Translations under genes and position numbers: made by a program
In this document: positions 6,180-36,091 of the stretch, piece after piece
Layout of the letters: each line of letters begins with the position of its first letter
Numbering within the stretch: position 1 is the first letter of the stretch
The notes under the pieces: generated by a model
Seen by the model: the letters and a program-made list of their open reading frames with translations, nothing else
The model's database searches: none
What the model was told of the DNA's origin: nothing
Assembly: GCA_009779935.1 (NCBI GenBank)
Contig: WRAX01000025.1
Coordinates: forward strand, 1-36,091
Reading direction: 5' to 3'
DNA length: 36,091 bases
Origin: Defluviitaleaceae bacterium
Lineage (GTDB): Bacteria > Bacillota > Clostridia > Lachnospirales > WRAX01

Positions 6180-6217
6180 TATAACGAGAGTGTGGAACTT
6201 GGGAGGGGTGATTATTT

Positions 6218-7198
6218 ATGCTGCTTGCTATAATACCACCTTTGCTTATTGTGGTGGCTTTTTTGGGCTTGCTACTATCAACCCGCTTTTCCCGCACAAA
6301 AGCCATCATTTGTACCAGTGTAACCGCACTTGTGGTTTTGCTTGGGGCGTTTAGTGCGCACTTCACAATTATCCGAATTGGTTGGCGACTACCTGTAACC
6401 CACATCTTCACCATTCCGTGGATATTGGTTTTGCTTTGTGTGGTTGTGTTAAACCTCGCTATCGTGATAAGAGAAAGAGAACCTCTCGCACCCGAAATTA
6501 AGCAAGGGGTAATACGCAAGGCAAACAAATGGTTCTTGGTAGCTTTGGTGGCGATTTTGGTGGCGGGCGTTCCACTTTATTGGGATTGGAATATGGGTAC
6601 AAGTCACAGGGGTTACAGTTTCAATCGGGTTAATACTGGTAGTTCCTTTTACCTTTATGGCGGAGGAGAATTGTTTGTTTCCTTCCGACCTTTTACTGCA
6701 CTCAATGCTTACCAAATCACCAATAATCAGCACCAGTCTCCTTTCGAGGGCGAAATAATTACATTTATAGGACGCAATCAAATACACTTTTCTGGTAGAT
6801 TTTATGATTATTATGTACGAAATCCTCGTTTTGGTATTTGGCACGACATTCGGATAACAGGAGAAATTGACTGTAGATGGGATGTTGAAAATTTGACTCG
6901 CCACAACGATAGACGGTGGGTTGAATGGTATTTGGCATATATACTTCCAGAGTACAGCTCATCATGGCAATATGAATGGGATGAGCAGTGGTATGAGCGA
7001 TATATGGAATACTTTTTTGAAGCAGACCAAAGAGCTTACATAATATTTTCAGCAATTAAGAACGCTGAACTGGTGCAAAGTGTTGGCTTTATCGACAACT
7101 TTTTCCGTGTGATACGCATACCAACCCTTGCCCTGCTGGCAATCTACACCATGTTCCGCATTGGATTGCGTGTAAAGCCCGGCAATGACCAGAATTGA
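6218..7198 (+). CDS. Membrane protein of unknown function, paralog A of a tandem pair
   Basis: A 326-residue protein with about five predicted membrane segments: two near the N-terminus (PPLLIVVAFLGLLLST onward), one around residues 65-85, one around 108-125 ending PLYWDWN, and one at the C-terminus. A large polar part of about 150 residues, rich in Trp and Tyr, lies between the fourth and last segments. The start ATG follows GGGAGGGG. It shares long stretches with the next gene: FSRTK, KANKWFL, GTSHRGYSFN, LVQSVGF, DNFFRVIR. The pair therefore arose by duplication, with strongly diverged central domains. No known family is recognised; the large domain is probably outside the cell, judged only from hydrophobicity. 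Confidence 0.75.
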   Translation: MLLAIIPPLLIVVAFLGLLLSTRFSRTKAIICTSVTALVVLLGAFSAHFTIIRIGWRLPVTHIFTIPWILVLLCVVVLNLAIVIREREPLAPEIKQGVIRKANKWFLVALVAILVAGVPLYWDWNMGTSHRGYSFNRVNTGSSFYLYGGGELFVSFRPFTALNAYQITNNQHQSPFEGEIITFIGRNQIHFSGRFYDYYVRNPRFGIWHDIRITGEIDCRWDVENLTRHNDRRWVEWYLAYILPEYSSSWQYEWDEQWYERYMEYFFEADQRAYIIFSAIKNAELVQSVGFIDNFFRVIRIPTLALLAIYTMFRIGLRVKPGNDQN

Positions 7199-7240
7199 CT
7201 TACATACACCTGAAATGCTTACCTGAAAGGGTGATTGTTG

Positions 7241-8158
7241 ATGTTGCTTATCATAATACCTCCCTTACTTATCGTGGTGGCTTTTCTGGGCTTGTTGCTA
7301 TCGACATGTTTTTCCCGCACAAAAACAATTATTTACACCGGCGCAACCGCTCTTGCGGTTTTGCTTGGGATGCTGGGTGCAAACGCATTTCATCTACGCT
7401 TTCCTTGGTCAGTACCGATAGCCTTTACATTCGCATTTCCATGGATGTTGGTTATGCTTATTGCGGTTGCAATAATTGTTGGAGTGTATCGTAAAAAAGA
7501 AGAACCGGCTGCGCCGGAAACAAGATTAAGGATGGTTGTCAAGGCTAACAAATGGTTTTTGATGGCTTTGGCAGGGATTTTGGTGTCGGGCATACCGCTT
7601 TATTGGGATTGGAATATAGGAACAAGCCACAGAGGGTACAGCTTTAATCCGGCAGAGCCTGCCGATGTTAAGTTTAGTTCCCCCTCTCCCATTCGTTTTA
7701 CACTCAACACCTTAATGCAAACATACAAAGCCACAAATGCTGACGAATCAAATGGTTTTCACGGCGAAGGAATTGTATTTGTAGAAGATAATCACCTAAT
7801 TTTTGATGGTATATATTTCTTCTACTCCATACAAAATCGTGGCTTTGGGCTTTGGCATGATGTGTACCTTATACGCCTTCTTCCGCCTGCCACGGATCAA
7901 TTTTATCTTGGTAGTTATATGCACAATATACCACGTCTGGGTTTTGGAAAACAAATAAATACCGAAGAAAATGAAAGATATTACATAGTATTTTCGGCAA
8001 TTGCAAACACTCGGCTGGTGCAAAGCGTTGGCTTTGCAGACAACTTTTTTAGGGTGATAAGAGTGCCGACCCTTTCCCTGTTGGCAGTTTATATTATGAA
8101 CCGCATTGGGTTGTGGGTTAAGTGGACGAAGGAAGCAAGGGTAGATATAAATACATAA
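7241..8158 (+). CDS. Membrane protein of unknown function, paralog B of a tandem pair
   Basis: A 305-residue paralog of the gene at 6218-7198, with the same order of hydrophobic segments and the shared blocks PPLLIVVAFLGLLLST, KANKWFL, PLYWDWN, GTSHRGYSFN and DNFFRVIR. The middle part is shorter and unlike paralog A, apart from similar spacing before the C-terminal IVFSAI.N segment. The start is ATG 7241 behind AAAGGG; two in-frame TTG codons just upstream are less likely. It lies 42 bases after paralog A and 18 bases before the M18 aminopeptidase, so it is probably in the same transcript. Its function is unknown. Confidence 0.75.
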   Translation: MLLIIIPPLLIVVAFLGLLLSTCFSRTKTIIYTGATALAVLLGMLGANAFHLRFPWSVPIAFTFAFPWMLVMLIAVAIIVGVYRKKEEPAAPETRLRMVVKANKWFLMALAGILVSGIPLYWDWNIGTSHRGYSFNPAEPADVKFSSPSPIRFTLNTLMQTYKATNADESNGFHGEGIVFVEDNHLIFDGIYFFYSIQNRGFGLWHDVYLIRLLPPATDQFYLGSYMHNIPRLGFGKQINTEENERYYIVFSAIANTRLVQSVGFADNFFRVIRVPTLSLLAVYIMNRIGLWVKWTKEARVDINT

Positions 8159-13098: not shown

Positions 13099-13497
13099 AT
13101 GACTGACAAAATCAAAATCTTTATAGTAGACGACAGTAAAATGGGACAGATGATGCTGTCCAGATTGTTAACGGAAACATCACCCCATGCGGAGGTTGTG
13201 GGAGAAAGCAGCAATGCCAGCGGGGCAATTTTTGCGCTGGAAGATGCTAACCCCCATATTGTAATGTTAAAGCTTAATATACCGGGCGATATGGATTCAG
13301 AAGAAGCTTTACGCAGAATTAAGGAAGTGGATCCAAATATCTATATTGTGCTATGTCCTATGCCGCAGGACAGGGAGGAGCTTGACAACTACATCCGCAC
13401 AGGCAAGGCGGATAACTTTTTGGCAAAACCTATACAAAAACCTGCTTTACAGCGGCTTATTGCGGCTTATGGGCAGCGGAAGAGGTCCCAGCAATGA
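13099..13497 (+). CDS. Stand-alone CheY-like receiver protein lacking the phospho-acceptor Asp
   Basis: A 132-residue single-domain receiver. The start FIVDDSKMGQMMLSRLL gives the acidic pair of the metal site, and NFLAKPIQ gives the conserved Lys-Pro near the C-terminus. The strand that should read 'DIVLLDxxMP' reads HIVMLKLNIPG, so the phosphorylated Asp is replaced by Lys. The protein is therefore probably a pseudo-receiver that cannot be phosphorylated in the usual way, acting by binding a partner. There is no DNA-binding domain. It begins directly after the YheC/YheD stop and overlaps the desulfurase start by four bases (ATGA), so its dose is tied to both neighbours. No histidine kinase is present. 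Confidence 0.85.
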   Translation: MTDKIKIFIVDDSKMGQMMLSRLLTETSPHAEVVGESSNASGAIFALEDANPHIVMLKLNIPGDMDSEEALRRIKEVDPNIYIVLCPMPQDREELDNYIRTGKADNFLAKPIQKPALQRLIAAYGQRKRSQQ

Positions 13498-14576
13498 TTT
13501 ATTTGGATCATGCAGCAACCACGCCGCCATCAAAGGCGGCAAAGGCGGCTGCTTTGCGCAGTTTTAATATGTTTGGCAACCCATCGTCCTTGCACGTTTT
13601 GGGGATTGAGGCTGAAAAGGAAATTGCCCATGCCCGTGATGTTTTGGCAAGAATTATTGGTGCAAGCCCGCCTCGGCTAATTTTTGCATCCGGCGGGACA
13701 GAGGCTAACAATTTGGCATTAAAGGGGACGGCACGCAAGCACAAGGGACGGCGCATTATAACAACAAGGATGGAGCATTCCTCCATCCTTGAAACTTTGG
13801 CTGTAATGGCGGATTTTGAGCCCCTTTACCTTGATACGGACGAGGGTGGGGCCATATGCCTTGATGCACTGCAAAAAGCCCTGGAAGAGCCAACCTGCCT
13901 TGTTTCCATCCATCATGTAAATAGTGCTACGGGAGTTATTCAAGACATACATGCCATTGGGAACATAATTAAACGGGTAAGCCCCACCACCTTATTTCAT
14001 GTGGATGCTGCCCAGTCATTCTGCAAACTTCCTATACATGTGAATAATATGCAGGTTGACTTGCTGACGGCATCCGCCCATAAAGTTGGCGGGCTGAAGG
14101 GCTGCGGCTTCCTGTTTATACGTGATGGTGTGCATTGTGCGCCCACAACCCAAGGCGGCGGGCAGGAGAGGGGCTTGCGCAGCGGCACGGAAAATGTGGC
14201 GGGCATTCTGTCTTTCGCTGCTGCTGCCGAAAGCTTTATGCCTATAACCGCCCCGCTTAAACAGGTTTTTCTGGATGCACTAAATCTTGATGATGTAAAG
14301 GTTTTGGGCAAAAATACCAGCCCATACATCCTCAACATTGATGTGGCAGGGGTTAATCCCGAGGTGCTTTTGAATGCCCTTAGCCAGCGGGGCGTGTGCG
14401 TTTCTGCTGGTGCGGCGTGTTCGGCCAATAAAAAGGGGCAGGGGCAAATAGGGTGGGGGCAAGCCCCCACCCTACGGGTTAGTTTTGGTGAAGGCAATAC
14501 AGTGGATGAGGTGGTTAAAGCCGCTGAATTACTTACAGAAATCGCTACCAACCTGCGAAAGCTACGTAAATTGTAG
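13494..14576 (+). CDS. Cysteine desulfurase (NifS/IscS-like) with a palindrome-derived C-terminal segment
   Basis: A 360-residue pyridoxal-phosphate cysteine desulfurase that takes sulfur from cysteine. It shows MIYLDHAATTPP at the start, GGTEANNLALKG, HVDAAQS, the PLP lysine in TASAHKVGGLKG, RSGTEN, and the active-site loop SAGAACSA with the nucleophilic Cys. Directly upstream of thiI, its probable job is sulfur supply for ThiI-dependent tRNA 4-thiouridine or thiamine synthesis. It is shorter than usual: only about 15 residues lie between ACSA and LRVSFG, where relatives have more. Part of that stretch (GWGQAPT) is encoded by a 26-bp palindrome whose second copy provides the TAG stop codon. 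The start ATG overlaps the receiver stop. Confidence 0.9.
   Translation: MIYLDHAATTPPSKAAKAAALRSFNMFGNPSSLHVLGIEAEKEIAHARDVLARIIGASPPRLIFASGGTEANNLALKGTARKHKGRRIITTRMEHSSILETLAVMADFEPLYLDTDEGGAICLDALQKALEEPTCLVSIHHVNSATGVIQDIHAIGNIIKRVSPTTLFHVDAAQSFCKLPIHVNNMQVDLLTASAHKVGGLKGCGFLFIRDGVHCAPTTQGGGQERGLRSGTENVAGILSFAAAAESFMPITAPLKQVFLDALNLDDVKVLGKNTSPYILNIDVAGVNPEVLLNALSQRGVCVSAGAACSANKKGQGQIGWGQAPTLRVSFGEGNTVDEVVKAAELLTEIATNLRKLRKL
14449..14474. repeat. Palindrome copy 1, inside the cysteine desulfurase gene
   Basis: A perfect inverted repeat with 12-bp arms (TAGGGTGGGGGC and its complement) around a 2-base AA centre. It lies in frame within the desulfurase coding sequence and encodes roughly I-G-W-G-Q-A-P-T-L. 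An almost identical palindrome, differing only in the centre (TT instead of AA), lies 125 bases downstream. The pair looks like a short interspersed palindromic element. Confidence 0.9.
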
Positions 14577-14599
14577 GGTGGGGGCTTGCCCCCACCCTA
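14574..14599. repeat. Palindrome copy 2, spanning the cysteine desulfurase stop codon
   Basis: The same 12-bp arms as the copy at 14449-14474, around a TT centre. The first three bases of the palindrome are the TAG stop codon of the desulfurase. It lies between that stop and the thiI ribosome binding site (GGGAGG). No T run follows on either strand, so it is not a normal terminator, although the hairpin could modulate thiI translation or protect the upstream message. Confidence 0.9.
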
Positions 14600-14622
14600 T
14601 GCAATAAACCGGGAGGAAAACT

Positions 14623-15801
14623 GTGGATAAAACACAAGAAATTTTGCTGATAAAGTATGGTGAGATTGCCCTGCGGGGCGGCAACCGCCGAATATATGAA
14701 AATATGCTGATGGATGCCATACGCAAAAACCTTGCAAATGCCGGGTTTGCAGGCTTATCGGTTTATAAAGAGCAGGGGCGTTTTGTGGTGGTGGGTGATG
14801 GGCTTGCCGGTGCAATCCCCCATATTGCTTGTGTTTTTGGCATCACATCCATTTGCCGTGGCGTGCGCACATCCCAGCGCACTTTGGAGGGTTTGTATGA
14901 TGCTGCTTTGGAATACACCAAGGAAAATCTGGGCCATTGCGCTACTTTTAAGGTGGCGACCAAAAGGGCAGATAAAAACTTCCCCGGCCGAAGCGACCAA
15001 ATGTCTGCCGAGCTGGGTGGGCATTTGCTTGCCCACTTTCCCCATCTTAAAGTAAAGCTGGAAAAGCCTGATTTTAACCTTGTTGTGGAGATTCGTAACA
15101 GTATTTACATCTACTCCCAATCCACGGAAGTGGCAGGGCCCGGTGGTTTGCCCTCCGGATCTGCCGGTAAGGGCGTGCTACTTTTGTCCGGCGGCATTGA
15201 TAGCCCTGTGGCGGGTTATTTGGCGGCAAAACGGGGCATTTCCCTTACTGCTGTCTACTTCCACTCACCCCCTTATACATCCGAGCGTGCAAAGGAAAAG
15301 GTGGTGGATATTGCCAAGCAGCTGGCATTTTACGCAGGCGGGGTTAAACTAATTGTGGTTAATTTTACCGAGATACAGCTGTTTTTGACAGACAAAACCC
15401 CTGCTGCCAAAATAACCCTGCTGTTGAAGCGTGCCATGCTTAAAATGGCGGACAAAACCGCAAAAAAAGAGGGTGCATTGGCACTGGTGACGGGGGATGC
15501 GGTGGGGCAGGTGGCAAGCCAAACCCTGCACAGCCTGCACGCCATGACGGGAGCGGCAGATTTGCCAATTTTGCGCCCACTGGTATGTTATGATAAAAAG
15601 GACATTGTAAGCCTTGCCCAAAAAATCGGCACATTCGACATTTCGGTGCGCCCTTTTGATGATTGTTGCACGTTGTTTTTGCCAAAAAACCCCGAAACCA
15701 AGCCAAAGCTGTCCATAATACAAAATATCGAGCGCAGGATGGATGAGCTTGATGAAATGATGGAAAAAGCCCTTGATGGGGCGGAGGTTTTTGAATTTTA
15801 G
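14623..15801 (+). CDS. thiI: tRNA 4-thiouridine synthetase ThiI
   Basis: A 392-residue ThiI without a C-terminal rhodanese domain, the form usual in Bacillota, where sulfur comes from a partner desulfurase. An N-terminal ferredoxin-like/THUMP region binds tRNA (KYGEIALRGGNRR, then VATKRADKNFPGRS). A PP-loop adenylation domain with LLSGGIDSPVAGY follows at about residue 187. The segments ALVTGDAVGQVASQT and RPFDDCCTLFLPKNP are typical. It activates U8 of tRNA and may also supply sulfur for thiamine. The GTG start at 14623 is 7 bases after GGGAGGAAAA. The gene lies downstream of its probable sulfur donor. Confidence 0.95.
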   Translation: MDKTQEILLIKYGEIALRGGNRRIYENMLMDAIRKNLANAGFAGLSVYKEQGRFVVVGDGLAGAIPHIACVFGITSICRGVRTSQRTLEGLYDAALEYTKENLGHCATFKVATKRADKNFPGRSDQMSAELGGHLLAHFPHLKVKLEKPDFNLVVEIRNSIYIYSQSTEVAGPGGLPSGSAGKGVLLLSGGIDSPVAGYLAAKRGISLTAVYFHSPPYTSERAKEKVVDIAKQLAFYAGGVKLIVVNFTEIQLFLTDKTPAAKITLLLKRAMLKMADKTAKKEGALALVTGDAVGQVASQTLHSLHAMTGAADLPILRPLVCYDKKDIVSLAQKIGTFDISVRPFDDCCTLFLPKNPETKPKLSIIQNIERRMDELDEMMEKALDGAEVFEF

Positions 15802-35926: not shown

Positions 35927-35962
35927 TTACACTAAATCAAACAGCACTCTTGTATTCGTACA
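35927..35962 (-). pseudogene. Stub of the DUF4177-type gene in the right terminal repeat
   Basis: The ATG and ribosome binding site match the gene at 129-344, but after MYEYKS the sequence diverges and ends after five further codons (AVDLV, then TAA). The repeat boundary therefore lies inside this gene, leaving an 11-codon stub. A functional product is unlikely. Confidence 0.75.
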
Positions 35963-36091
35963 TGGTGCAATCCTCCCTTTTAACTGTCTTTTTTATTTCT
36001 GTTATTTGTAATCACGGCACTTACTACCCCAACTGCAATCGCAGGTATTGCCATAGTCAAAATAATACTTAGCCAGTTTAAGTCGTTAAAC
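35944..36091. repeat. Right copy of ~147-bp terminal inverted repeat
   Basis: This is the reverse complement of the first ~147 bases of the window, reaching exactly to the last base. On the minus strand it carries the C-terminal codons of the same small membrane protein (around 35979-36091) and the first six codons of the DUF4177-type gene. There is one visible substitution relative to the left copy, and apparently a one-base difference in the A run. Confidence 0.95.

Follow-up and report, generated by a model that had tools for sequence, protein, structure and literature searches.

The 3' end of a cysteine desulfurase gene in a Defluviitaleaceae bacterium carries two palindromes that are, with high confidence, members of the GTAG class of REP elements. 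REPs are short repeats that cannot move on their own but can be mobilized as single-stranded hairpins by a REP-associated tyrosine (Y1/HUH) transposase (RAYT). The first copy is translated as part of the desulfurase, and the second contributes the stop codon of the gene. The window, meaning the whole 36,091-nt stretch of DNA that was analysed, contains the following features at this locus.

13494..14576, plus strand: cysteine desulfurase gene (NifS/IscS family, NifZ-type partner of ThiI), 360 aa; Pfam Aminotran_5, E 6.9e-61; directly upstream of thiI
14418..14420, plus strand: codon of catalytic Cys309, an invariant column in 27 desulfurases
14448..14474, plus strand: codons 319-327 (IGWGQAPTL) through REP copy 1, in place of the relatives' unrelated loop
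14451..14475, minus strand: REP copy 1, reading GTAGGGTGGGGGCTTGCCCCCACCC on the minus strand; perfect match to the genomic family
14573..14597, plus strand: REP copy 2, in the opposite orientation to copy 1; desulfurase-thiI gap
14574..14576, plus strand: TAG stop of the desulfurase gene, lying within the GTAG head of REP copy 2
14611..14616, plus strand: GGGAGG, likely thiI ribosome-binding site, 6 nt before the GTG start and 13 nt past REP copy 2
14623..15801, plus strand: thiI, tRNA 4-thiouridine synthetase without a rhodanese domain; Pfam ThiI, ThiI_fer and THUMP

The palindromes at 14449-14474 (TAGGGTGGGGGCAAGCCCCCACCCTA) and 14574-14599 (TAGGGTGGGGGCTTGCCCCCACCCTA) are the same in their 12-nt arms and differ only in their two central bases, AA in the first and TT in the second. 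This agrees to the base with the first-pass annotation, which had also correctly placed the desulfurase TAG (14574-14576) at the start of the second palindrome. Copy 2 is the exact reverse complement of copy 1 over 28 nt, including one flanking base on each side, and the AA/TT difference thus reflects one asymmetric element in two orientations. Copy 1 lies wholly in frame (ATA GGG TGG GGG CAA GCC CCC ACC CTA) and encodes I-G-W-G-Q-A-P-T-L ten residues past catalytic Cys309. In the mRNA, copy 2 forms a G+C hairpin of high stability between the desulfurase and thiI. Duplicated flanks that would mark a target-site duplication were sought around the window copies and none were found. The pair is oriented opposite to this genome's usual REPIN pairs, which implies either two separate events or one rearranged pair. 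A REPIN spanning the desulfurase C-terminus was considered and rejected, since the copies point the wrong way for one and the sequence separating them encodes the conserved C-terminus.

The window holds other repeats. Its ends (1-147 and 35945-36091) form a 147-nt inverted repeat (99%), probably a repeat that broke the assembly. At 6206-8122, direct repeats 110-160 nt long have diverged from one another and recur at intervals of about 945-1023 nt, which suggests tandem paralogous genes.

The palindrome belongs to a multi-copy family. The 2.14 Mb genome, a draft of 53 contigs without annotation in which ORFs were called mechanically, matches it with at most two mismatches at 48 places; the reversed pattern gave 0 places. 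The conserved unit is a 25-nt GTAG-headed sequence, 5'-GTAGGGTGGGGGCTTGCCCCCACCC, with a perfect stem of 10 bp (12 with flanks) and a 2-nt centre. When copies are set in one orientation, GTA precedes the 22-nt core in 39 of the 47 distinct copies and the opposite flank is variable. Such a one-sided head is characteristic of GTAG REPs (PMC3733652, PMC2817692). Several copies pair up as inverted dimers with GTAG outward, like REPINs, for example C13 26967+/27051-, C49 568+/662- and C28 12571+/12655-. TnpA_REP of other bacteria recognizes GTAG and cleaves between C and T in vitro (PMC8266576). A C-T junction lies at or adjoining the palindrome end in 25 of the 47 copies, a count that is uninformative by itself. 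A few REP copies carry the TT/AA centre the other way round with respect to the GTAG head, which would look like a flipped hairpin loop (L027 7777 and L029 3349, at C21 11276 and C32 8348).

Exactly one Y1/HUH transposase (Y1_Tnp) match exists in the genome, at C13:27699-27932, adjoining ruvA-ruvB. Five REP copies (26970, 27027, 27994, 28218 and 28466) surround this locus on both sides of the gene. One of the five is in frame inside the RAYT gene itself (VEGVGASPHPTSIGEI), before the HUH motif, and another is in frame in a neighbouring methylase-like gene. The protein has the H86-x-H88 and Tyr motifs, which are invariant in seven relatives. This putative RAYT probably moved the REP copies. The first-pass annotation had suspected a mobile short palindromic element remodelling a coding sequence, and had named further genomic copies and a partner transposase of the REP-associated type as things to look for; the repeat family, the single REP-flanked and REP-containing Y1/HUH gene and the palindrome-free DNA of relatives bear this out.

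In-frame palindromes also recur in RAYT genes elsewhere. A survey of RAYT loci (L112, L116, L119, L122, L123, L127 and L130-L200) found in-frame GTAG palindromes in 49 of 82 RAYT ORFs, which came from Clostridia and other phyla, against about 1 of 82 in a codon-shuffled control. The palindromes recur at two positions, one some 40 codons ahead of the HUH motif and the other some 13 codons past it. Both positions are filled in 24 of the 82 ORFs, as a rule in opposite orientation, and the paired palindromes are equal or nearly equal within one gene and different between genes. In these 24 ORFs, the HUH-coding segment is therefore enclosed by a REPIN.

The desulfurase was compared with its relatives. 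Its PLP lysine (SAHK) and Cys309 are retained. From the KK after the Cys to the conserved R-V-S-F strand it has 13 residues, nine of which the REP encodes. In the congeners G002 and G001 (65 and 61% identity) this loop is 23 residues long and encoded by different DNA, and no palindrome occurs at the site in any aligned relative, these two included. In the more distant REP-free relatives G012, G014 and G004, the loops have 11, 11 and 8 residues. The first-pass annotation had described copy 1 as coding for part of a loop that is shorter than in relatives. The in-frame coding and the shortening relative to the two congeners both stand, but the REP insertion is unproven as the direct cause of the shortening, given that REP-free relatives have shorter loops still. 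The alignment confirms palindrome-free, unrelated DNA at the site; the edges of the insertion are blurred because the nearest desulfurase is only 65% identical. Judged from these alignments, the REP peptide has taken the place of native residues in a loop whose length varies in any case.

The AlphaFold model of the desulfurase keeps the fold (mean pLDDT 90, pTM 0.90). Its pLDDT falls below 50 only at residues 308-322, a disordered loop that holds Cys309 and the start of the REP peptide, and the peptide leads from this loop into strand 327-330. The closing T-L-(R) of the REP matches the conserved T-A-(V/L)-R motif of the relatives, and this probably made the insert easier to tolerate. The gene order here is the nifZ-thiI arrangement, which in Bacillus makes 4-thiouridine in tRNA (PMC5372745). 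Here, the conserved residues and the predicted fold suggest that the enzyme would still work with ThiI. Copy 1 may have survived because one of its open frames (GWGxAPTL) is tolerated in the mobile Cys-loop, with TL-R filling the place of T-A-(V/L)-R. Copy 2 may have been accepted because its GTAG head would regenerate the stop codon at the original position. The desulfurase of G002 ends CTG TAA and this one ends TTG TAG, with the same final residue and the TAG taken from the REP.

Donation of a stop codon is common in the family. In 16 of 40 GTAG-headed copies, the TAG of the REP ends an ORF of at least 150 aa, whereas other GTAG tetramers at the same loci serve as such stops in 8 of 414 cases (Fisher p 2.5e-13). 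The main REP family of G002 does so in 0 of 31 readable copies (p 2.3e-5), the 31 being drawn from a few contigs and from about 100 copies. Orthologs of 11 stop-donated genes were found in G001, G002 or G012 via a concatenated query. The stop falls at the identical residue as in at least one relative in six of the 11, including RuvA, a DnaK-like protein and the desulfurase, and the ends of the remaining genes differ from those of relatives by a few residues. Mere tolerance downstream of genes would scatter copies over many positions, which argues for a preference for GTA(A/G) gene ends or for an advantage of that position. In a small, post hoc hand count, a G precedes the relatives' stops in 6 of 9 same-residue cases and in 2 of 17 others (p 0.008).

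REP copies lie in frame in at least eight other genes. Within proteins, they are found in prdA, prdC, a DUF2161 gene, the methylase-like gene and the RAYT, and they form C-terminal tails in ROK, ABC2 and GNAT genes. Some long ORFs across REPs are probably spurious antisense frames, and the copies near the N-termini of SpoIIIAE and DUF4430 may fall outside the translated or conserved part. Ten of 11 in-gene copies use GWGxAPT frames (p 0.0007 post hoc, assuming that two of five open frames are equally likely). Donated stops and in-frame copies are family-wide. The remodelling near the active-site Cys loop proposed in the first-pass annotation stands as an in-frame copy but not as something special to that loop.

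Both proline-reductase genes on contig C19, prdC and prdA, carry REPs in frame (L026 892-913 and 2366-2387). In both congeners the prdA site is occupied by a REP of another family, GTAGGG[GT]CGGGCATTGCCCG[CT]CCC, whose forward matches number 128 in G002, 34 in G001 and only 4 in this genome. The prdC copy is shared by G002, where it has decayed yet still codes GWGLxPA; it is absent from G001 and the other relatives. In the DUF2161 gene, the REP stands in place of native sequence with no change in protein length, and a congener has TTGGGGCAAGCCGCCCCC at the site. The decayed prdC copy and the differing prdA REPs indicate that some copies are old and kept at the protein level, and that the content of a REP slot changes between species. 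A tentative proposal, which we rate below an even chance, is that the REP genuinely prefers stop codons (GTA-A/G) as targets, putting its own TAG in place of the native stop without changing the protein, and that it can also replace an older REP at the same intragenic site. Host proteins would then keep a REP slot whose content follows the resident transposase.

In a rival account, RAYT insertion at new sites is not the means of spread; palindromes that already exist would instead be copied over one another through homology or stem-loop replacement, by gene conversion or template switching. The different REP at prdA in two congeners, the displacement of native DUF2161 sequence at constant protein length and the few copies with a loop inverted relative to the GTAG head are all in keeping with it, and stem-loop replacement has been described for IS1272 (PMC5678879). 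At most sites for which there are orthologs, including the desulfurase, no earlier palindrome is seen, and we regard this account as unlikely.

A still less probable explanation is that copy 2 is an ordinary functional hairpin between the desulfurase and thiI (an intrinsic terminator, attenuator or mRNA stabiliser) and that the in-frame copy is incidental. The gap does contain this highly stable G+C hairpin just ahead of the thiI ribosome-binding site, and a role as 3' mRNA elements has been reported for REPs elsewhere (PMC3733652). An intrinsic terminator was rejected, since no U run follows the hairpin in the transcript, the next DNA being TATGCAATAAACC. The hairpin is absent from this position in both congeners, and the identical 25 nt occur in sense and antisense, inside frames and on the stops of unrelated genes. 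Very improbable is a non-autonomous relic of a DDE-type element (MITE), for although other MITEs likewise behave as short, multi-copy, intragenic inverted repeats, the window copies have no target-site duplication, the GTAG head is one-sided and a cognate Y1 gene is present. With mobile GTAG REPs as the preferred reading, the element most likely would have no purpose in sulfur transfer, and would be a selfish insertion that the host tolerates and that also places a strong hairpin in the mRNA before thiI.

The element resembles several known systems. It shares with the GTAG REP superfamily the one-foot GTAG, a short perfect stem, a 2-nt loop, inverted dimers, intragenic in-frame copies and the head TAG as the stop of flanking ORFs (Di Nocera et al., 2013, PMC3733652). 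That work already covers GTAG REPs within ORFs and TAG stops supplied by their heads. The hosts of that survey were Proteobacteria, Cyanobacteria, Chloroflexi and the PVC group, whereas the present genome seems to be a MAG of clostridial origin, as spoIIIAE and proline reductase suggest, and the stop-codon share (16 of 40) and the same-residue comparison were measured in the present genome. The REPs of Haemophilus parasuis (GTAGGGTGGGTCTTGACCCACC) and P. fluorescens (GTGGGAGGGGGCTTGCCCCCGAT) closely match it in head, stem and CTTG centre (Nunvar et al., 2010, PMC2817692), but these hosts are unrelated and the likeness of short G-rich stems may be convergence. Variants GTAGGGTGGGGTCTTGACCCCACCC are present in this genome. 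TnpA_REP subclass 2.4 also has in-frame REPs within the transposase gene (Quentin et al., 2018, PMC6006769). Unlike it, the RAYT of this genome has one REP before the HUH motif, a position that goes unmentioned in the passages considered, and 24 of the 82 relatives have a REP pair flanking the motif. Rickettsia palindromic elements (RPE) likewise code in-frame peptides in unrelated conserved proteins. RPE-4 and RPE-6 have a CGTC head and no known transposase, and RPE-1 is a longer insert. Identity with them was rejected, since the element here is headed by GTAG rather than CGTC, is a 25-nt unit rather than a long insert, and is accompanied by a RAYT.

Beyond what is published, this analysis adds a likely clostridial host, a measured stop-codon preference, the same-residue comparison and turnover at the same site. 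It bears on how REPs choose sites and are tolerated in dense genomes, where a head that carries a stop codon, used as a gene stop in about 40% of copies, offers a simple testable rule for where REPs settle and why they do little harm. In the desulfurase, prdA and prdC, a selfish hairpin has turned into part of conserved enzymes.
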